Origin: Sporopachydermia quercuum
Taxonomy: Eukaryota; Ascomycota; Sporopachydermiomycetes; Sporopachydermiales; Sporopachydermiaceae
Length of the DNA: 64,000 nucleotides
Direction: 5' to 3'
NCBI GenBank assembly: GCA_001599295.1
Contig: BCGN01000002.1
Span: forward strand, 2,108,001-2,172,000
Below the pieces are notes generated by a model. It had not been told where the DNA came from. It did no database searches and saw only the letters and a program-made list of their open reading frames with translations. Of this stretch, positions 3,215 through 62,000 are shown in pieces; position 1 is the stretch's first letter, and the number at the start of each line of letters is the position of its first letter. Both the position numbers and the translations under genes were made by a program.

Positions 3215-5801
3215 AGTAGAAATAATTAATTGCTGAGTTATGTATAAACGGTTTAAAACCTCTGTTGTCTAATGCAATGTATCCAATACTTTTTCTCACA
3301 AATAAGTGTAATTTGGATTATAAGTTCAACAAATAAGAGTACAAGTAATGCTCAAATCTAATGCAAGAATCCTTCTTCAGATATTTTAATATCAAATTAT
3401 TTTCCTTAAGATATCAATATTCTTTTGTTGTGTTCTTCTGCTCTTCTGTTGTTTTTTATTCTGTTCTGTTCCCACAGTCGTTCGTTGTACTCCAATCTCT
3501 CTGTGCCTCTCCCCTTAAAAGTAAGTAATCAATCACACACAACAAAAAACCTTATAATCTATCAGTTATATTAATGTTTTATCAATGTGAAAATATCTAT
3601 TCAAACAGAACGTGTTATTTGTTTGATTATTTATTCCCAGCTTTTATTTCTATTGATTTCTCAATCACAAGTAATGTTTCCTCCTCTTTCCCCTCTATTA
3701 TACATTCATATCACCCCAGCCAACTATTGGTTCACTTAATCTACACAAGTATAAGTTCTAGGGAATGTGTATCGTATCACTTTCTCTCGGTTATTGTATA
3801 ATAGCCTAGTGAATATTTTACCTATTTTATCGCAAATATCTGGTTACAGCAAACTTATATTGTCTGTATTATGATTGGCACCGATTGGCTCTTCAATCTG
3901 CGTTTATTCATTTAATCAATCATTATCTTCGTATGTATGTAGTCTTTTGTTTGGCAATAAAATGGGAAGCGGAAGGCAACCGACGTAGAATGAATAGGAC
4001 TAATTGTGCAATTTCAAGGATGTGTTATGGGACAGGTGGAGGTGGATCATCAGCGGTTCAAAGGATTCACTGATTGACAAATAGGAAAGAAAGATAAGAA
4101 GAGATGGAAATGAATTTCTATTTATAAAATAAATAAATTATTTTTAAATAACAGCGGTTTTGCATTAATTTGATAGGATGTAGTAATGAGATTGAATGTA
4201 AATGTATAGTTTGTTGGTGGCTATTATGTTGATGTTGAGTTTATCTGTTGATAAGCATGGGTAGTTATGTACCTTAATAATGAATATTATGGAAAACAGA
4301 TATTTCATTTTTTTCCTGGGAGTCTAGTATGTTGATTGTTTTATCACGATTTGTTTATCTACAGTAATAGAACACAGATCTCGATTGTACTACTGTTTGA
4401 AGTGATTTACTAATACGGACTGATTGCCTTATGGATAGTCGATCATCTGATGATGCGGAGTGAGAATCATACATAATAAAACAAGCAATTCGACCAGTTC
4501 TTTGATCTCTAACAGTTCAATCGATTCATGGATTTCTCTACCGAATTCATTCGNTTTGCTTTTTATGACTGTCAACTACAAATATCGACTACATTCTCCT
4601 GCCTATTGCTCAATAGCTATCGCCTTAGACTCGCATACAACTTCCTGTAAGCGTCTCAGGTTTCATAGAACTTTTATACCGCACCAATTGCTACCTGTTG
4701 TAAAAACCATAAATCTCAATAAAGACTACACGTACATTCATCCATATAATCCTATTACTATGTAACCAAATAATCAATTACTTATAACCTATCTTCTGTT
4801 AGCTATATCAATCTACAAAGTTTTTAAGACCTTTCATCAATCAAACAGATGCACATCAAAACTTCCTTATATTTATTGCCTTACTTAATCACGATCACTG
4901 CCCTTCATTCAACCTTTCAACCGTTGTAGCACTGTTAACAAACCTATTCCTGGGGTAAATATCAATCACGCATTATGACATATCTGGATTGTGATATGAC
5001 ACACCCATTCATCACCAATCAGATCGCAATCCAACGCCATTCGGTGATTATTGTATTTGGGCAGGGTAACTAATCATAAGAGCCAAGTATTACTCATCAA
5101 ACTTTGTTGCACGTGACTGGGTAAAATTTTAGAGTCACGAGAGTTCTAAAAAACAATAGACGATCATGGAAATTTTTCTTGATAGTTAACGCCGTGGTGG
5201 ATTCCAGATGATCATCTGTTTGATGTTAACAAATAACGCAACTCTAAAAAGTAATCAATCAAAAATATCATTATAATGAATATTGTAGTGGATAATTCGG
5301 GTTGGGGTTCAAAGAGCAGAGCTAGAATTAGTACCGAAANACGGGCATTGGAAGGGATAGAACAATAGAAGAGTTAAATATTAGCTTCTAACTCAACACT
5401 ATGGAGTTGTAGTATTAAGTAATTTCATTAATGGCTAAACTTTCTTTTAACCATCAAACACGAATTTTATTCAACGCAGACATAGCCACATTTCAATATT
5501 ACAAGCAATGTAACCAAGAAATGTTTCCATAAACCTACAAATGCAAAGTATGACTGACATTAGCATATAGTTTAAACTAATTATTAAAATCTATACACTA
5601 TAAAACCTCTAATAAAACCCATTAAGTAAAAGCCAGTGTACACCGATGTAGTAAATATATTAACGATTGTATGAAATGGTGGATAGAGAAACCATATAAT
5701 ACATCTCATCAAACTTTTAGTCTTCCTTGAAACCATGAGTTTTTATCAACAGCCATCAAGAAAGCCCGAAACACCTCCCATGTTTTCGTTCATTGAGAAA
5801 C
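3215..5801. other. Intergenic region upstream of SFP1
   Basis: This is 2.6 kb without a supported gene. A C/T-rich tract on the plus strand spans about 3420-3780 and contains a GTAAGT at about 3520; its strand bias is opposite to SFP1. Short open frames at 3574-3801, 3885-4073 and 4460-4765 show no domain and look like chance. Two isolated Ns are present. Divergent noncoding transcription is possible but unproven. Confidence 0.4.
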
Positions 5802-6041
5802 TTACAATAAGAGAGCAGCAGCACCGGCAACGGCAGCACCTAGTAAACCAGCGTTGACACCATTGGCAAAAGCTCCATCAGGAGTGACAGTGCTAGAGGG
5901 TTGGGTTCCGTTTCCGCTACCGGTATCGTTACCGGAACCAGTATTGTTGGTAACACCAGTATCATTGGTATAATTGCTGAATTGAGCAGAAGCAACAGAG
6001 GCAGCGGCAACAGCAGCGATGACAGTCTTTGAGAATTGCAT
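5802..6041 (-). CDS. Small GPI-anchored cell wall protein (Ccw12-like)
   Basis: This 79-residue ORF has the layout of a tiny yeast mannoprotein. It starts with a signal peptide (MQFSKTVIAAVAAASVASA, likely cut near residue 19). A short Thr/Ser/Gly/Asn-rich mature region follows, with N-glycosylation sequons NYT, NDT, NNT and NGT. It ends in a Gly/Ala/Leu hydrophobic tail (LLGAAVAGAAALLL) typical of a GPI signal, with a plausible omega site at the N/G before it. The start MQFS and tail AGAAALLL resemble S. cerevisiae Ccw12, but the mature part is much shorter and lacks its repeats. Expected location: plasma membrane or covalently linked to wall glucan. It stands alone, with 2.4 kb and 4.1 kb of apparent noncoding DNA on its two sides, which is unusual for such a small gene. 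Confidence 0.85.
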   Translation of the reverse strand: MQFSKTVIAAVAAASVASAQFSNYTNDTGVTNNTGSGNDTGSGNGTQPSSTVTPDGAFANGVNAGLLGAAVAGAAALLL

Positions 6042-9000
6042 TTTTGAATAGTGTTGTATGTAAATTATCGATAATTATCAGCTTATACTAACTTCTAGTA
6101 ATTGCAATAGACTTTAGAATGTATACTTCGAAAACAAATTCAAATAAATTGAAGGCGAAAACTGAAAGAGAAGAAGAACATTTTTACATGATAATGGAAT
6201 TCTTCACTTATTTATAATATTTCTCTCGCAACTGAAAACGAGGCGTTCATTGTCGCGAAGATAAAGAGAAAAGTTTAACTACTAGGTCTCGGTCTAAATA
6301 TAGTAATAAGTTAAAGTTTTACAAATACCTTAACTTTAAATAAAAACGAAAAAATTTTAAGAGAAGACAGGAACGAATTTTTTTTTAAATTGGGCAGAAT
6401 AATAATCTTTGTAAAACGAGAGTTAGAACTTCTCATTGAAGAGAATTTGCTAGCAATCACAACAGATGCTCAGACTAATGGATTGTTTAGTTGTTCTCAA
6501 ATTGGAAAAAAGCCAGTTGAAGTGTTAAAGCAGAGCTTACAATAGTTACAATATAATTAATAATAGTATCACATAATTCTTGCTCGATGCAATGCATATT
6601 GGAATGTTGATGTATGTGTATTGGACTACGAACTTCGGTAAGAACTCTTTTTAGTCTATTATTGAACTTTCACTAGTAAAAATATGTTCTAGACCACGTC
6701 TAAACTAAGAAAACAGTAATTAGCATTGGAGAGCGATGAATCTCATAATCTAAGGTATTGAACAGCCAGTAGAAGGAAACGCAAAAAACTAAGGTTCAAA
6801 GTCTATTCTCAATTTGGCATAAGAAAGGTATAATTAGAGTTGTACCTTTCTATTTTGTTTCAATAACTTGATAGTATTACTTATGAAAGTAATATTCGAA
6901 TGGATATGGATGAATCTCTTAAATGGCCTAAAGATGAAAAGAAACCAGTTTTGACTTCGTACAATTAAAGAAAAGGTATTTTTCCTACCAAAACCAAGAA
7001 TTTACTGAGACTTATCACTCAACGATTACTTGGCCCATCTGCCTCACGTTCCCGGCCAAGAAGGTTAAAGAGATGGATTGAGACACTTTGCAGATCCTTG
7101 CGTGAAACTATGTTCCATACCGATAACCAATGCCTAACTATGCTGTCCAGAACATTCGACGACGACCGAGACTTGATTCACAGTGTAACAGACCTATTGA
7201 ACAATAGATGAGATAGATAGCTTCGAATTGTTTTAGTATACTTATTGATCATGATCAAAAATGAAGCTTGAAAGCTGTATTAACATTCTGAGGGTTGACG
7301 ATGTGAGACAGAAAAGTAAACAAAGCTGGACGCAAGGCTAGTCAGAAAGTTGTAACAAGGACATAAGGATAAGTGAGAAGGGTCCTCCTTCTCTTTGGTA
7401 TTTAGTGTAAGGAAATTGTCGATATGAACCAAAGAACATCATGGTCAATCAATCCAGTAATTGTTTGTTAAGTGTCTGTCTTGGAAAAGAGTTAGCGATT
7501 CTACGTCTCCCATTTCAGCAAATAATTGCTTCTCCATAACAATAGTTTATGGCGCCCCGCTAGGGAGCGGTAATGGCATAGCTATATTTGGGGTAGAACC
7601 CGATGCTCTCGGGAAAAACACTGGAACTATTTTCCGGCTATTGAAACGTTAGATGACAATGCTTTCAAATGTCATATTTTCGATAAACGGCTGATTTACT
7701 TCAACGTTAATTATAGGGTTTTTTTATCGAGAAAGTAGAAAAGTTCAAATGCAGTTGCGTAAAAAAGGTCTAGGCCATTGTTTTTGCACGTTCGTTCCCT
7801 AATCATGTGACGCTCCTCATAATAAATTCCCAATGAATGGAATGTAATTAGTCGTGGCGGTTCGATCGGCAGCTTCGTTCTTTGAATAATGGCGGTACCT
7901 CTTTCTCCAAGTTTTAGACAAAGGAAGAAACAGAATTAATGTCAGTTCTTGAATTGTCTTTGAATCTGATTATTAAGAAGCAAATGATATTTCGTCAGTT
8001 GAGACAATTTTTCTATTAACCTGATGTGATGATTATATGCTNAAAGTAAGTAATTCAAGGCGTCGGTATACCTCTGCACCGCATACTCTTAGTATCAGCA
8101 ACGAACCGTCCAGAATCTTTACTTGTGATTCGTTTTCATGGGATTCCACGGATTTGTACGCTTAGTTTAAGCGTATTTCTCCTCTGCTCCTTTGTTCTGA
8201 ACTCATCATATATCATTGACTAGCTTAACTGTAGCAACTTCCTAAGTACATTGGTGCCTATTACTGAGAAAATCTATACTTTTAAGTTTTAAATTTCGGC
8301 TTAAGGTTTACCCTAAAGTTTGACAAGAATGCAAGTCAGCGTTTTTAAGCGATTGGATTGCTCCAATAGGAAATGCTTCGTAAACTAAAACCTCGTGTGT
8401 TTGATTGGAATTATAGATAGTTGTTTGTCTGATGACCATGAGAAAATAAAGAAGAGGAAAAATAGTAGAACGCGATTAAAGAAGTGAAGAGGTTTAGTAT
8501 GGAAATGAAAAATTGTATAATATCATGAACTCACTGTTGTGGCAGCCTGCATAACAGATTAGTTGCTAATTAGTTGCTAATGAATTATCTTGATGATGAA
8601 TAATAAAGCTTATTGGAGACGAAGTGTGAAATGATGAAATGTTGTATGAAGTTTATGTAGAGCTTTGAAGATAAATTCTAGGTAAATCTGGCCAAAATAT
8701 GTCTACTTCCGGAACGTTAGATTCAATATGAGAGAATTGACTAAAACTAATCCGCCTTCTTGACAGTTGGATATCAGCTACCACTACATTTTCAGTTCAG
8801 CTTTCAAACAGTATACATTGAATCATATTCTTATTCATTATATTCATGGTATATGGCCTCCTTGTTAAATCGTCGGCTCATACTTTGAATATTCATGTCA
8901 ATATCCAATTTAAGCAATGAAAGTCCTTAATCTGNATCGATTATTAGTAGCCTAACCGATTTGAGAAATCACATCCCATCGCAAAATTTTTCGTCCCTTA

Positions 9001-10144
9001 AACGAGGACTCTCACCCTAATATTTCTTTCACTGTTTTCGTGCGCGGATATAGAGTTTCTTACTGAACAGAAAAGCGAAACAACGAAAATTTCATTCTTC
9101 GTGGTTTCCAATACAGCACTTATTATTCACTAAATGATTAAATCAGTTGAGTTTAGTTGGTTGCAGTTGACTTGCCTATTTCGATCACTTTCTATTCGTT
9201 TTCATTCGTTTTCATTAAATCGTTTTATTCTATAAATAGAATAAATGGAAAGGTGGATAGTTTGGGAAATATTCTCGCCAAGTAAGACTGATTATGATAT
9301 ATTAACAACTGAAGAAAGCTCAAAAGCTATTACTACGAATTGCAGTTCGAGAATAAATTTCTCACTTTTCGTCGCTCTTTCTATCAACCTCTTTAGTACT
9401 TTTCCTCCAAAAGTCAAGCAGAAGTCTTAACCAGTCTTCTTTTCTTCTGCTCCATCATTCGCAAATCTATTGCGTTACATCACCATCCATTGAATAATGC
9501 TTGAGGCACAAGCAAAATTTTTACTTTCACATCTTGACTAAAATAGTTTGCTAATGGAAAATTACTATTTTCAGTTAGTTGGTGTTTGGGATGCCTAAAA
9601 TTAAAATTTTAAACTTTAAACTTAAGATTTCATAACGCGTTAATTTACGTGTTCGTGTTAGACAGCGTTGATGGATAACTTTCGTTGCAAGCAGATTAAA
9701 GGAAATTACTGTTTGAAGTAAAAATCAATTATAAATAAAACTGAATTAAGTCTAGGCTTTCTGCAAATGAATTTATCGTGAGAAATTGGGAATTGGGAAT
9801 TGGAAACGTTCCTGGTACACTTCATTGAGTCACATTAGATCTTCTCAGGCATTTAGTATGTCTATACCTGGGAGTTCAGTCCTGCGACGGTACGGTGACC
9901 GGGNTCATTAGAAATACAAAGCGCAATAAATAAAACCCGGATTCCCGACTAACTGGGTGTCTCTAATAACTCGGAGCTACGTTATTAGAAATTTATTCCT
10001 GTAATTAACAAGAATTTATGAGAAAGGGATCAAATGCATAGTATTGTTCTTATTTTCTTATGTGTATTGCTATTATTAGTATTTGTTGATCCTCATTGTA
10101 TCAAAAGAGTTCATTTGATAAGTAACATGATACGGCTGTAGATA
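6042..10144. other. 4.1 kb interval without a convincing gene
   Basis: This interval holds the promoter of the small GPI gene and then about 3.5 kb of mostly AT-rich DNA. Exceptions are a locally GC-richer patch at about 7020-7200 within an interrupted open frame (listed separately), and another at about 7550-7630 within a 63-codon frame that starts with TTG rather than ATG. Short duplications are visible: an 11-bp unit twice at 8559-8580 and a 10-bp unit (attcgttttc) twice near 9193-9212. I found no tRNA B-box in a foldable context and no transposon-like ends. Confidence 0.4.
6867..7211 (+). other. Interrupted open frame, possible small or decayed gene
   Basis: One frame is open from 6867 to 7211 except for a single TAA at 6966-6968. 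Before the stop, an ATG at 6900 gives 22 codons (MDMDESLKWPKDEKKPVL and a few more). After it, about 80 codons read as a basic, helix-prone sequence with LLRLITQRLLG, RLKRWIETLCRSLRETMF and DDDRDLIHSVTDLLNN, ending at TGA 7209. The second half is more GC-rich than its surroundings. I do not recognise a family. Options are a chance open frame, a host gene broken by a nonsense change, a missed intron, or a base error. No good splice pair removing the stop was found. Confidence 0.25.
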
Positions 10145-10828
10145 CTAATAGTTACCTGCACCTAGTAGAAACTTCAGTTCTTCAGCTTTGGCTTCACCAA
10201 CTAGCTGAACTAATTCAGTCATGTTAGGCAAAAATCGATGATCTTCGAATTCAAATCCAGGAACAACAACTTCACTGATCAGTAAACAATCATTGCCCTC
10301 TCCTTCATAATCATCGTTTCTTGGCTTGACAAAGCTAGCTTTATACACTCCACCCTCAACAACCCATTGCTGTCTTTCTCCATTCTTACGATCAAATCCA
10401 ACATCAAAAGATTCAACCTTACCTTCTGGATGGATCAAAACATAAGTTCCACGTCCTTTCTGTAGTATATGAATAATTCGTGATTTGTTTCTATGAAAAC
10501 GACCAACTGGCGATTCCGAGGCTAAAAGATAGAAAATCAGAGTGGAATAATTTCTGTATGGAGTTAAAGTTGTACCATCCCCAGCAGCAAGGGGTTTTCT
10601 CGTCTGGTCTTTTTCTATTGTCCTTAATGCGGATTCAGTAGTCTTGCCATTATTGTTTCCAGGATAATATGGACTTTCCATATAGAATGGCGAACGATCT
10701 GTTTCAGAATAAAAGCCACCTTCTGGATGAGCCAATAANTTATAATCCTTGATCAATTCTTTCACCTCTTCGGATGCAGGAACGATTTTATCAAAAAAGT
10801 TAGGTCTAATGATATTCACTCTTTCCAT
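10145..10828 (-). CDS. Cupin-fold protein of the YML079W (DUF985/cupin_5) family
   Basis: This 227-residue protein aligns along its whole length with S. cerevisiae YML079W (about 200 residues). Shared blocks include HPEGGFYSETDRSP (near residues 34-47), NYSTLIFYLL, VGRFHRNKSRIIHILQKGRG, GKVESFDVGFDRKNGE, QWVVEGGVYKASF and LISEVVVPGFEFEDHRFLP. The family forms a small beta-barrel cupin; the yeast structure is known but its substrate is not, so no reaction is assigned. Relative to yeast there are extra residues between the EGG block and the STLIFY strand (about 65-95). An ambiguous base at 10739 gives one uncertain residue near position 30. The ATG at 10828 is the only reasonable start. The neighbour downstream is IMP2 on the same strand, 532 bp away. 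Confidence 0.93.
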   Translation of the reverse strand: MERVNIIRPNFFDKIVPASEEVKELIKDYXLLAHPEGGFYSETDRSPFYMESPYYPGNNNGKTTESALRTIEKDQTRKPLAAGDGTTLTPYRNYSTLIFYLLASESPVGRFHRNKSRIIHILQKGRGTYVLIHPEGKVESFDVGFDRKNGERQQWVVEGGVYKASFVKPRNDDYEGEGNDCLLISEVVVPGFEFEDHRFLPNMTELVQLVGEAKAEELKFLLGAGNY

Positions 10829-26279: not shown

Positions 26280-28336
26280 TTAATATTCTTCCATTTCCTC
26301 GTAAGAATCAGCTCCTACTTCTTCATAATCCTTTTCTAAAGCAGCCAGATCTTCCCTTGCTTCGCTAAATTCACCTTCTTCCATACCTTCACCAACGTAC
26401 CAGTGGACGAAAGCTCTCTTATTATACATTAAATCAAACTTATGGTCAATTCTATTCCAAGCATCAGCAATCGCAGTAGTATTACTTAACATACAAACAG
26501 CTCTATCGACCTTAGCCAAATCTCCATCAGGAACAAATTGGGGAGGTTGGTAGCAAATACCAATCTTGAAACCAGTAGGACACCAGTCGACCAGCTGAAT
26601 GTTCTTCTTAGCTTTAATGCTAGCAACTGCACTTGTGACTTCCTTTGTAACAACATCACCACGGTAAAGTAAACAAGTAGCCATGTATTTTCCACTTCGA
26701 GGATCACACTTGACCATTTGGTTAGTTGGTTCGAAACAAGTGTTGGTGATCTCAGNAACAGAGTTTGCTTCATGGTGAGCCTTAGCAGAAGAGATCACTG
26801 GAGCGTAAGAAACTAAAGGGAAATGGATTCTTGGATATGGGACCAAGTTGGTTTGAAATTCGTTCAAATCAACGTTTAAGGAACCATCGAATCTCAACGA
26901 TGCTGTTACAGAAGAGACTACTTGAGCAATTAATCTGTTCAAGTTATCAAAAGAAGGACGAGCAATATCCAAATTACGTCTGCACATGTCATAGATAGCT
27001 TCATTATCAACCATAAAAGTACAATCAGAGTGTTCTAAAGTAGTATGTGTAGTTAAGACAGTATTGTATGGTTCAACAACCGAAGTGGAAACTTGAGGAG
27101 CAGGATAAACAGCAAATTCAAGCTTGGATTTCTTACCGAAATCAATTGATAATTGTTCTAATAACAAGGCACCGAAACCAGAACCGGTACCACCACCTAA
27201 AGAGTGGGTGAAAAGGAATCCCTGTAAACCTCCACAGTTATCAGCAACCTTTCTGACTCGATCCATCACTTGATCGATCAACTCCTTACCAATTGTATAA
27301 TGACCTCTGGCGTAGTTATTGGCGGCATCTTCCTTTCCTGAGATCAATTGCTCAGGATGGAAAAGGTCTTTGTATTTACCGGTTCTCACTTCATCGATCA
27401 CATTGGGTTCCAAATCAACATAAATAGTTCTTGGGACATATTTTCCAGATCCTAATAATTTCGTCGTTAAAAACTTTGATCAAATCTCATTTTATTATTC
27501 AAAACACAGCATGACGACTTACCAGTTTCAGAGAAAAAAGTAGAGAATCCTTCTTCTCTCTTACCAAGAGATTGGTGTTCTGGTGCTAGGTATCCATCGG
27601 GCTATTGGATAGTTAGAATTTGATTTCCAACAATTGCAAAATGTCGAAGTCTTAATTTAATGGTTGAACAATCTTTATCCAACTTCTCTACTGGTTATAA
27701 CATCACCACTTACTTGAATACCATGTTCCAAACAATATAACTATAATAACGTTAGTAACTGAGATCGAATCACACCAACTATTTCCTTGTCTTCTTCATA
27801 TCCATAACGTTCAACAAAAAAACAATAAAATACCTACCTCCCAGCAAGAGTTACCAATTTGACAACCGGCTAGCAAAAATGTTAGAATCCACAATACTAG
27901 AGATAACGCACCTTTGCCCATACACAATGACTATTATGCATCTCACTAAATCAAGTTGTCATGTTCCACTTTTCAATGATCCAGCATATTCTATCCCTGA
28001 GATCTTCATAAAAAATTCCTTTCATCCACGTACCTTGACCAACTAGTGATTAACTTGTTAGTATCCTATTCTGAACAATCAACAATATAAAGTACATTAG
28101 CACAATACCATGGATCAATCCAATCAATCGATAGACCATAACAAGTAGCAATCATAAACAATCAAATGTCACAAAATCATTCTTATATCAACAACCTCTT
28201 GCTGGATTCTTATCCTTTTTCCAAACACACGCTTCTATTATGATTCATTCAATTTGCTATCATGCCTATCCATGTATTGTAATGCTCAATAACCTATTTC
28301 CAAGCACATACCATTTATACTGATAACTTCTCTCAT
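26280..28336 (-). CDS. TUB1: Alpha-tubulin, six exons including a 9-nt microexon
   Basis: Exons 28312-28336, 28034-28042, 27838-27869, 27714-27740, 27523-27601 and 26280-27451 join to 447 residues, the same length as S. cerevisiae Tub1. The spliced N-terminus reads [41 protein letters not shown], which is canonical alpha-tubulin. Exon lengths are 25, 9, 32, 27, 79 and 1172 nt; introns are 269, 164, 97, 112 and 71 nt. The first four introns have clear YTAAC branch sites. The GTP-binding tubulin signature appears as GGGTGSG in exon 6, and the chain ends EEMEEY with the usual aromatic terminus. It forms the alpha/beta heterodimer of microtubules. An N at 26756 affects one residue (NCT; Ser, Thr, Ala or Pro). 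Every junction is supported by protein conservation. Confidence 0.96.
28034..28042 (-). other. TUB1: 9-nt microexon (exon 2 of alpha-tubulin)
   Basis: Sense sequence TTGGTCAAG is flanked by ATACTAAC...CACTAG upstream and GTACGT downstream. It completes Val and supplies Gly, Gln and the first base of Ala, restoring the invariant INVGQAGCQIG of alpha-tubulin. Without it the protein would lose three conserved residues but keep the frame. Confidence 0.93.
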
Positions 28337-54777: not shown

Positions 54778-56312
54778 ATGTCAATTCGACCTGCTACGCA
54801 TGCTGGTTCCTGGTATAGTGGTTCCAAAACAGTCTTAGATGCTCAGCTGGATAAATTTCTACAGTCAGTGNAGTTTCAGGGCTGTAAAAAGAATGCAAGA
54901 ATTCTTGTTGGCCCGTAAGTATTAGAAATACGAATTCTAGATTGGAAACTTTGAGATTGGTGTTATTTCTGTTCAACTTCTAGCACCCTGCTTCTCTTCT
55001 AGGTCTTCTGTTGCTCAATTAGTAGTCCTCTAACATTTTTGAAGACATGCAGGTTATAGTTATGCTGGTAAAACATTAGCTGAAACATATAAAGCTTGGG
55101 ATCCAACTGGATGTAAGAGAGTGTTTATCTTAGGACCATCACATCATGTGTATTTCCATGGAGGAAAACTTTCAGCGTTTGATTATTATGAGACACCATT
55201 AGGTGATTTGCCTGTCGATGTTGAAGGTATGTATTAAAGACTTTATGATACCGAACTTAGGGGGATTGATGGTAGAGCCTGATTTGATCTTAACTGGGAG
55301 ACAAATGTTATGATCATGTGTTGATTACAACTAACATTTAATAATAGTTGTTAATGATCTTAAGAAGAATAAAAAGCTGTTTGAAATGATGACCACACGG
55401 GAAGATGAAAACGAACACAGCTTCGAAATGCATATGCCTTTTCTTTTCAAAGTTTCTGAACAGTGAGTATCAAAATGCGAAAAAATACAAGTGAATCTGA
55501 ATCTGAGCTATTAATGTACTTTTACATGCAATCTCTATCAATTCTATTTTAAATCAAACAAGCATTGCAAACTAGCACTGCTATCGAACAAGCTCATTTA
55601 TATATATTAACATAGGTGATTTGCATCTCCCACCAGGTTACCAAATGGTCCACCAAGTATTATTCCTATAATGATTGGTCAAACAACTGTTGAATATGAG
55701 CAAGAACTTGCAAAAGTATTGGCTGATTACTTAAAAGATCCTGCAAATACGTTTGTTGTATCAACGGATTTTTGTCACTGGTAAGTTTCTAATAACTGTT
55801 GTCTTGCACTATATATTATTGATGCCACTTATGATTCTGGCATGTCATTATTTTTATTACTACTTTTTTCCCATTGAATCTCCTCCCACATCCTTATTAT
55901 TACTAACACTATAAAACTATATTCTAGGGGAAGAAGATTTGATTATACTGCGTATTGTTCTGATAAATCGATCGCATCATTGACTTACCTAAACTCCTCT
56001 TTTGACCATAAATCAACAGCTGCAATGAATTTTCCAATCCATAAATCAATTGAGTTTTTGGATCGAACAGCTATGAAGGTTTTATCTACAGGTTCTTATT
56101 CAGAGTTCAAAGATTATATTGAAATGACAGACAATACAATATGTGGTAGAAAGCCGTTGAGTATTTTATTAGCTAGCATTGCCAATGTTGTTGGTAAGAA
56201 ACATAGTGCTGGTTCAGGCAAACTAGAATGGATTGGATACTCGCAGAGCAACGAGGTTACCAGAGTTAATGATGGCAGTGTTAGTTATGCTAGTGGATAT
56301 GCTACTTTATGA
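54778..56312 (+). CDS. MHO1: MEMO1-family protein Mho1 (5 exons)
   Basis: Exons 54778-54914, 55045-55226, 55348-55462, 55637-55780 and 55928-56312 join in phase to 320 residues (yeast Mho1 338, human MEMO1 297). Introns are 130, 121, 174 and 147 nt; the 5' sites are GTAAGT, GTATGT, GTGAGT and GTAAGT. The first intron ends in AAG after CTCTAAC. The protein opens with RPATHAGSWY, then PHAGYSYAGKT (His47), FILGPSHHVYF (His79/80), VVNDL, NEHSFEMHMPFL, IIPIMIG, STDFCHWGRRFDYT. These His residues match the metal-binding pocket of MEMO1, a dioxygenase-like fold linked to copper and redox signalling. In yeast the gene is tied to invasive growth. The frame is open upstream to 54706 but has no ATG, so 54778 is the start. 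Confidence 0.94.
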
Positions 56313-58003: not shown

Positions 58004-58797
58004 AGGGAAATAGGATAAGCGTATATGATTCTGCAAAACAGACCTCTAAGCTNTTGATACCAGTTGTGTTTTGAGTGTGTCTACACGTCTCCAGTTTTTT
58101 GAATATGGTTCTTTTCTTGTGATAGTTTTTCATAAATTATACAGCTTTCGATCAAATGTGATTAGTGGTGCTAAAATATCTAGAATGCTTCCAATACAAA
58201 CAATAATTTTTCAGACCTATGAATATCACGTGGTTAATCATGTGATATATATGGGCTGTGATTTTGTCATGACACATCAGAGAGTGTCTGTCATTTAGTA
58301 AGATCAAATGAACAAGGATACTATTTGGTTATCTATGCAATGCACTTTGCGCATGAGCTTTTTTTCTTTGCTTACCACATTTTTGTTTTATTGTCTTTTC
58401 ATCAGAACTTAAAACGTAGCCATCAAGAATAAAATAAAAATGAAGTTTAACACATTGATTGATGTTTATAGTAGTACTTCCATTGATGTCAAATGTAATA
58501 ATAATTAGTCACGACAAACATATAGCAATCATATTGTATATCACGTAATCATAAATACTCTACATTTTTCACATGCATTTCTGCCTTGTTGAGATCACAA
58601 ATTGATTCAATTTTACACAGAAACATTGGATAACACACAAAAGCAGAAAGTATATAAACAATTACAATCCCCCTTTCACGTTTGTTTGTCTTATAAATCA
58701 TCGTTCATTTTATTATGTCTTACTGTTGTGCATTGTTTGTTGATGCTTGGATCTTTCTGAGTTCAGCAAGCAAGTCTAAGGGCTGAGTATTCCAACA
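58004..58797. other. Divergent promoter region between the NUFIP-like gene and FKS
   Basis: This is 794 bp. A CCCCT (stress-element-like) core occurs near 58671, about 125 bp before the FKS start; a single copy is weak evidence. A 75-codon frame at 58071-58298 is rejected. There is one N at 58053. Confidence 0.4.
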
Positions 58798-58956
58798 ATG
58801 ACAAATAATCTGCAATTGAGCCACACAAATAGGAAGGCCAGTAGTAAGGATGGCCATACTTCATCGGTTACGATGGAGGATAGTTTAAAGACGGTAAGCT
58901 CATCTGAAGCAAGACGAAAAGTGGAAGAAGAAATAGACGAAGACGAAGACGAAGAC

Positions 58957-59018
<62 letters not shown>

Positions 59019-62000
59019 GAGTAGTCATAATGGCAGCATTGGAAAAGGACACAATGATAGTATAATATAACCAACTTTCTTTGAAATGATACTGGTCTCC
59101 AGATAAAGAATCTGATTATTTTACTAACTCGCTGATAGATATAACTTCAATCACTGATAGTAAAGAAGACAGATTAGAGAGTTCTTCAGTTTCNNNNGAA
59201 ACTGAAGAGTTTCCAGACAATGATCTAACATCAACATCGGGTACGGTGAATGATCAATTGACCATACTAGGTGTAACTAAGAATATAAAACAAACCTGTT
59301 CAGCGAATGACGCAGGGTTCATCACTCCAAGGCTGAAAACTGGAGCATTGAAAACGCTCCAAAAGGTTTCGAAGCCTCTTTCTGGCAGTCAATTTACTAC
59401 CTTGTCTGGAAGACTGCGAACTCGCAACTTTTTAGCCGGCGAAGCGTACTCAATTTATGATTTATATCCTAACTGGAACCATTTTTCTTCTAAACCGCCC
59501 CCCGTTGGACAAGCACAGATTTGGGAAGTGTTCGAGAAACTAAGAGACATATTCTGTTTCCAGCAGGATAATGTAAAAAATCAGTTTGATCATTTGATGA
59601 GATTGCTAGATTCAAGATCTTCCAGAATGACTTGTGAACAGGCATTATTTAGTTTGCATTCTGACTACATTGGTGGACACAACTCTAACTTTAAGAAATG
59701 GTATTTTGCTTCAAGGCTACATGAACTGGAACCTATTTATTTTGCAACGAATGTAAAAGTACAAGTATTACACGAAAATGATGCCAAAGACTCGAAAGTG
59801 TACTTTGAAAAGCTTGAAACAGAATGGAGATCAAAGCTAAATTCTTTGTCTACTGTTGACTTTATACATCATATTGCTTTGTATCTACTTTGTTGGGGAG
59901 AAGCAAATACTGTACGATTCATGCCTGAATGTCTCTGTTTTATCCTTAAATGTGGTTTGGATTTTTACTATCATGAGTTGAACTACAGTGACACTTTTCT
60001 AACAGAAAAATCAACATCTAGTTTCCTCGATGATGTTATAACACCAATCTACAAATTCCAGCGTGATCAAATCTATCACTATGAAGGCGACAATTTGTAT
60101 CGTAAGAAAGTCGATCACAAACATGTGATAGGGTATGATGATATCAACCAAACATTTTGGTCTAAAGAGAGCTTGAATATGATATATTTAGGTGATAACA
60201 CTAGATTACTAGAGTACCCATTTTCAAAACGATATACTCAGTTGAAGAATATTGATTGGTCTTGTTCTTGCAAGAAGACTTATTATGAAACCAGAACATG
60301 GATGCATTCACTTGTCAATTTTAATCGTGTTTGGATCATTCATTTATGTACCTTTTGGTTGTTTGTTTCCTCAAACTGGCCGACGTTGTTTGTTGTCAAT
60401 TATCAATCAAACTTGAATAGCAAACCTGGAGCTCAAGCTGTCATTTCAAACGTTGCACTTTCTGGTCCCTTGGCTATTTTTATCAATTTGGTGGCTTTAA
60501 TATCGGAAAGGATGTATATTTCAGGGTCGTGCTTTGATAGTCCTAAGTTCATACTTCGATTAGCTACTCTGGTAGGATTGCTTCTTATAGGTGTGATGCC
60601 TTCAGTTTATGTATTTCACTTTTTACCATTGGACACAAACAATACTGTTGGGATTATTATATCATCTTTGCAGTTGGTGTTTTCTATTCTTAATATGATC
60701 TACATGTCGATTGTCCCTTTGGACAGTCTATTCACCACTTTTAGAAAGAAGAGCGAAGATAAATACATTGCAAACAAAATATTCACAGCTGCTTTTCCTA
60801 CTATATCTGGGTCAGGAAGGTTAGTTTCAATGGGTTTATGGCTTGCAGTTTTCACATCAAAATGTTTAGAATCCTATTTCTTTATGATCCTTTCGTTGAA
60901 AGATCCGATTAGAGAGTTACAAGTCATGAACATTAAAAGATGTGCTGGTGATAAACTTCTTGGCAATTTTTTATGTTTGGCTGAACCAAAGATTTTATTG
61001 GTGATTATATTATTAACTGATCTCACCTTGTTTTTCCTTGATACTTATCTATGGTATGTGTTATGGAATGCAATAATCTCCTTGTTTCGGTCATTTTATC
61101 TTGGAATATCTATCTGGACCCCTTGGAGAAATGTGTTTATTGGATTACCCAAACGAATGTTCTCCAAACTGCTGTGCCATGATGATCATGAAAATTCTAA
61201 TAGACCTGAGATCTCTGTCTCTAGATTGTGGAATACAATCATAATAACACTTTACCAAGAACATTTTATATCTGGCGACAAGCTTGATAAATGGTTGTAT
61301 AAACCTGTGTTGACTTCGGATCATGAAGAAGAATTAAAAGAACCTACCGTCTTTGTGTCGTTGGAAGATGAGTCATCTAAGTTCAGTTTGTTTGACTACA
61401 AGTCAGAATCAGAGAGAAGAATTTCTTTCTTTGCACAATCTTTATCTACCAGTATTCCTGAATCCTATCCTTTAAAAAAAATTCCAGCATTCACCGTTCT
61501 CATCTCGCATTACAATGAAAAAATTATGTTAACACTAAAAGAAATTATTAGAGAAAATGAGTTTTCGAAAACGATTCTACTTACTTATTTGAAAAATCTG
61601 CATCCAACAGAGTGGTCGAATTTTGTTCATGACACCAAACTTTTAGTTCAAGAGCAATACGAAACAAATGAAAAGAACTGTTATAACGATGAGGATTCTG
61701 AAGATGAGGGCAATGAAAGTGAAATGAATGGGAAAGCGTCTGATCTTCCGTTCTACTGTATTGGATTTAAATCGGCCAGTCCTGAATATATTCTTCGGAC
61801 AAGAATTTGGGCGTCTTTGAGAACGCAAACCTTATTCAGGACAATATCAGGATTTATGAATTATTCTAAGGCGTTGAGATGTTTATATGAAATTGAGACA
61901 TTAGAACCCCAAAGTTTGAAAAGATACCAAGCTCAGAATAATGAAAGAGCTATTGAGTTTGCTAGAAGAAAAGTCAGAATCTTAGTGTCAATGCAACGGT

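Follow-up and report, generated by a model that had tools for sequence, protein, structure and literature searches.

A 9-nt exon in the predicted alpha-tubulin gene of the yeast Sporopachydermia quercuum

Structure of the alpha-tubulin gene

A complete alpha-tubulin coding sequence is obtained on the minus strand, from position 28336 to position 26280, when six exons of 25, 9, 32, 27, 79 and 1172 nt are joined. Positions refer to the window, i.e., the whole 64,000-nt stretch of Sporopachydermia quercuum DNA that was analysed. The six-exon model of this locus (TUB1), with its 9-nt second exon, is near certain, and the small exon itself looks real and well made. The reading that best fits the locus, and that we hold to be very probable, is that the yeast is rich in introns and that the microexon is constitutive, its splicing proceeding by intron definition with the two flanking introns probably removed one after the other. 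The initial annotation had proposed the same five small exons, at the same positions, ahead of the main exon.

The spliced coding sequence is 1344 nt and translates into 447 aa, with no internal stop and one residue left undefined by an N in the sequence. In a phmmer search the best match is 4ffb_A (Tubulin alpha-1 chain), which we take to be S. cerevisiae Tub1; residues 1-447 align to 1-447 with an E value of 2.6e-258 and a gap-free identity of 82%. Identity with 3du7_A and 8yal_B, presumably animal alpha-tubulins, is 79% and 78%. The product belongs with the alpha-tubulins by similarity over its full length, the N-terminal 18 residues included.

Exon 1 (28312..28336) encodes M1 to N8 and the first base of V9, and aligns to 4ffb_A from M1. 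It is followed by intron 1 (28043..28311; 269 nt, phase 1), which reads GTATGT...TACTAAC...TAG. Exon 2 (28034..28042), the 9-nt microexon TTGGTCAAG, completes the V9 codon, encodes G10 and Q11 and begins the A12 codon with one base; it is symmetric (phase 1-1), is set off by introns placed after 25 and 34 nt of coding sequence, and is defined by the parse listing and shuffles described below. Intron 2 (27870..28033; 164 nt, phase 1) reads GTACGT...TTCTAAC...TAG. The gene model then places exon 3 (27838..27869; 32 nt), which completes A12 with two bases and runs to E22, exon 4 (27714..27740; 27 nt, symmetric 0-0), encoding L23 to Q31, and exon 5 (27523..27601; 79 nt), from P32 to the first base of G58. 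Splice signals delimit the intervening intron 3 (27741..27837; 97 nt, phase 0; GTAGGT...TACTAAC...TAG) and intron 4 (27602..27713; 112 nt, phase 0; GTAAGT...TTCTAAC...TAG). Intron 5 (27452..27522; 71 nt, phase 1) reads GTAAGT...TTTTAAC...TAG and has the weakest branch motif of the five. The main exon, exon 6 (26280..27451; 1172 nt including the TAA), is defined by the gene model and the phmmer match. All of these features are on the minus strand.

All five introns are GT-AG and none has a length that is a multiple of 3. Retention of any single one would expose a stop in frame after 23-80 nt of intron sequence, the extremes being intron 1 (23 nt) and intron 2 (80 nt). The introns are more crowded than first described: they fall within the first 58 codons and not the first 68, intron 5 splitting codon 58 (172 nt of coding sequence, or 57.3 codons, lie upstream of it). 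If a microexon is taken as an exon of no more than 27 nt flanked by introns on both sides, a limit from PMC8378409, both exon 2 and exon 4 qualify.

The 9-nt exon and chance

All parses from the ATG to the G13 codon were listed that are stop-free and have one or two introns, each of at least 35 nt, and a middle exon of at most 200 nt. This gave 231 parses, of which those with products more than 25 residues off the 18-residue length were left unscored. The microexon model alone yields a perfect N-terminus and the maximum score of 92. The second and third parses (76 and 73) contain the identical 9-nt exon but differ in a donor or acceptor; the top parse with a different middle exon scores 70, and the top parse without a middle exon scores 64, its product missing V9-G10-Q11. 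The earlier statement that the junctions restore conserved residues and phase stands, and none of the other listed parses is as good.

The 442-nt gap between exons 1 and 3 was also shuffled 200,000 times with dinucleotides preserved and the two exons held fixed. A 9-mer coding for VGQ between AG and GT appeared in 24 of the 200,000 shuffles; when YTAAC, YAG and GTRNGT were demanded as well, it appeared in none of them.

G10, Q11 and A12 are identical across the four aligned alpha-tubulins. The V9-G10-Q11 region is part of the T1 loop of alpha-tubulin, which contacts GTP. Given this position and the invariance of the residues, the 9-nt exon should be needed for a working protein. We infer that it is constitutively included in the mRNA.

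Splicing signals

All five introns have the signals of U2-type introns, i.e., a GTANGT donor, a YTAAC branch site and a nearby YAG. The initial annotation had credited four of them with clean YTAAC branch sites; the four stand, as CTAAC, and the fifth can be added, since intron 5 has TTAAC. Between 28336 and 27452 there are five copies of GTANGT, against a shuffle mean of 1.1 (at least five in 23 of 5,000 shuffles), and four copies of CTAAC, against a shuffle mean of 0.3 (at least four in 0 of 5,000). All nine coincide with donors or branch sites of the model.

Donor and branch matrices were built from ten control introns of the window, which lie in an F-BAR-like, an RNA15-like, an amidase, an unnamed and an MHO1/Memo-like gene. 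Among the controls GTANGT is present in eight, YTAAC in nine and YAG in nine. The control genes are open after joining, and matches to Memo, Amidase and RRM_1 cross the junctions of 8 of the 10 introns; the junctions that lack such family support are those of the F-BAR-like intron, which is outside the FCH match, and of the unnamed gene, which has no family. A join in the FKS-like gene could not be judged and was excluded. It should be noted that eight of the ten controls come from a scan that demanded consensus-like signals and two from reading of the frame, and that branch sites were chosen by their likeness to TACTAAC. With matrices that lean to consensus in this way, and are not fully independent of it, the TUB1 donors rank 1, 2, 3, 4 and 6 among 64 GT sites, and the branch sites of introns 1-4 are the best four. 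Rank 5 is held by an unused GTGTGT at 28230, whose score of 7.1 is above that of the intron 3 donor (6.5). The branch motif of intron 5, at 5.4, falls short of every control (the lowest of the ten scores 6.9) and is tied for fifth with an unrelated site. The distance from branch motif to intron end is 10-14 nt in TUB1 vs 8-25 nt in the control introns.

A known structured RNA in the introns was rejected, since the window gave no hit to Rfam at the gathering threshold.

Proposed splicing route and alternative readings

In the route proposed here, splice sites would pair across the introns and not across the 9-nt exon. Pairing across introns is the usual mode in yeasts. It needs no recognition of the exon, so that the small size would bear on the timing of splicing rather more than on how the exon is recognised. 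The recognition problem raised for this exon has an answer that is known in outline. The branch adenosine of intron 1, at 28058, and the intron 2 donor, at 28033, are separated by about 25 nt. With so little room, complexes on introns 1 and 2 should be mutually exclusive and the two introns should leave in turn; this spacing makes sequential removal likely. As to the order, there is a slight lean towards intron 1 leaving first, because its donor, GTATGT, and its branch site, TACTAAC, are both full-consensus. Its removal would fuse the microexon to exon 1, as the final part of one longer 5′ exon.

Other readings of the locus were considered. One is that the 9-nt exon is skipped, partly or under some conditions, and that the resulting alpha-tubulin, which lacks V9-G10-Q11, is either noise or serves to regulate microtubules. 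The skipped product is open and is the top parse among those that lack a middle exon. Omission of the symmetric exon (phase 1-1) would leave the reading frame intact, such that nonsense-mediated decay should spare the mRNA. A precedent exists in Yarrowia, where exon skipping is described in 4 genes and is the main form in one. However, skipping deletes G10 and Q11, which do not vary among the four aligned alpha-tubulins, and the product should not work; introns 1 and 2, moreover, both have consensus-like signals. Skipping of the fission yeast cgs2 microexon was reportedly not inducible (Romfo et al. 2000), which also counts against it. We consider skipping improbable. Its more specific form, in which the 9-nt exon would act as a switch and regulated skipping would yield a decay-escaping alpha-tubulin that tunes microtubules by acting as a poison or a sink, is very improbable.

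A second possibility is that this locus is a silent or minor alpha-tubulin copy, with another copy doing the work. S. cerevisiae and S. pombe each have two alpha-tubulin genes (PMC9294176). Yet the frame of 447 codons is intact and conserved throughout and the five introns are well formed, features that should erode in a dead copy. We consider this reading improbable as well; the locus is best seen as an ordinary and probably expressed alpha-tubulin (TUB1) gene.

Finally, an in-frame pairing of GT (28311) with AG (27870) is possible, and the 442 nt separating exons 1 and 3 would then be a single intron, or a nested one resembling a stwintron, with VGQ a chance match; but the single-intron product lacks the invariant residues and the shuffles argue against chance, so that this reading is extremely unlikely. 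In a stwintron a splicing signal of one intron is interrupted by another intron and no coding piece separates the two; here the intervening piece specifies residues that are invariant, and chance does not account for it.

A constitutive microexon with sequential removal of its flanking introns is therefore the reading retained. On that reading, an essential and conserved yeast gene carries key residues on 9 nt and offers a natural test of the smallest exon that the spliceosome can handle, as well as of the order in which crowded introns are removed. There is also a practical side: gene finders blind to tiny exons would call this tubulin truncated, or would call it without three conserved residues.

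Genomic setting

The window has a G+C content of 35%. In its 64 kb, TUB1 and five other genes have fifteen introns by the present models, ten of them outside TUB1. CTG codons were compared by eye with the best structure matches, presumably S. cerevisiae proteins, and all 11 that were compared stand at a leucine (2 in TUB1, 1 in an RNR2-like and 8 in an SSL2-like gene); a further 20 CTGs are present in an RPO41-like gene. The window reads as that of an intron-rich yeast in which CTG is decoded as leucine.

The Memo-like gene (PF01875, E 1.1e-72, match over residues 6-316) is at 54779-56312 on the plus strand and has four introns: 54915-55044, which ends in AAG and restores the frame, 55227-55347, 55463-55636, with a GTGAGT donor, and 55781-55927. 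The amidase gene (PF01425; 23374-25528, minus strand) has two, of 382 nt and 81 nt; the 81-nt intron has the off-consensus donor GTATGA and the branch sequence TAATAAC. A 7-kb stretch without open reading frames of at least 150 aa (3268-10145) contains a small one at 5805-6074 on the minus strand, with a signal-like start, a middle rich in Asn, Gly and Thr, and a hydrophobic end; it resembles a GPI-anchored wall protein. At 58780-59067 on the plus strand an open reading frame containing an extended stretch of aspartate codons is found directly upstream of an FKS-like gene, whose start may hold an intron.

Related genes were also sought elsewhere. The 29 pattern stretches from viral contigs contained no relatives. 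Of 60 stretches from prokaryote genomes one (L001) contained a relative, limited to residues 298-343 and without the 5′ end. This alpha-tubulin fragment (L001:3-140; 74% identity) is on a contig assigned to a Litoreibacter MAG and is probably eukaryotic contamination.

Comparison with known systems

TUB1 of S. cerevisiae has a single intron, after 25 nt of coding sequence, in line with the initial annotation. Its position would match that of intron 1 exactly. This orthologue is without introns 2-5 and hence without the microexon. The natural reading would be that the introns found here were mostly retained from an intron-rich fungal ancestor.

The closest mechanistic precedent is reportedly the microexon of S. 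pombe cgs2 (Romfo et al. 2000). That too is a fungal internal microexon, reportedly spliced via intron definition, the mode proposed here. The cgs2 case differs in that its downstream intron is reportedly partly retained.

A further comparison is with Y. lipolytica YALI0E34170g, whose internal exon of 4 nt is validated by two cDNAs (PMC2911113). Both are multi-intron genes of budding yeasts with a tiny internal exon and introns biased to the 5′ end. The genes are different ones, however, and the Yarrowia exon is shorter and demonstrated by cDNA, whereas that of TUB1 is deduced from sequence. From branch motif to 3′ splice site the Yarrowia mean is one nucleotide (PMC2911113), vs 8-25 nt in the introns of the present window. 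More than one intron is found in 109 of 951 intron-containing Yarrowia genes; 93 of the 109 have two, and the maximum is five (PMC2911113). Five introns are thus many for a yeast gene. Skipping of exon 2 predominates in one Yarrowia gene (46 cDNAs vs 2; PMC2911113), so the constitutive inclusion of short exons is no given.

Outside the fungi, a 1-nt exon is described in Arabidopsis APC11, for which intron definition and sequential intron removal were proposed, and potato invertase is cited for a recursively spliced 9-nt exon (both PMC4674806). The potato exon is of equal size, and for both exons a stepwise loss of the neighbouring introns has been reported or proposed, as is proposed for TUB1, but both are from plants and from unrelated genes. 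Exons of such small size thus have precedents in yeasts and in other organisms, and the principle is established elsewhere. The view that a 9-nt exon is very rare in budding yeasts and poses a real recognition problem was overstated, given the Yarrowia and Arabidopsis exons; in its favour, five introns are unusual and work on fungal microexons has been described as limited.

No report of a TUB1 microexon was seen in the titles or abstract starts among the matches listed by a literature search, and PMC4202332, PMC10581693, PMC8476143 and PMC2911113 do not use the word tubulin in their main text. PMC11121469 describes research on fungal microexons as limited, with earlier experimental tests in S. 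pombe only, and itself presents a microexon with regulated inclusion in Xlr2 of Trichoderma virens. Thus Xlr2 and TUB1 both provide fungal microexons, but inclusion is regulated in Xlr2, whereas the TUB1 exon looks constitutive.
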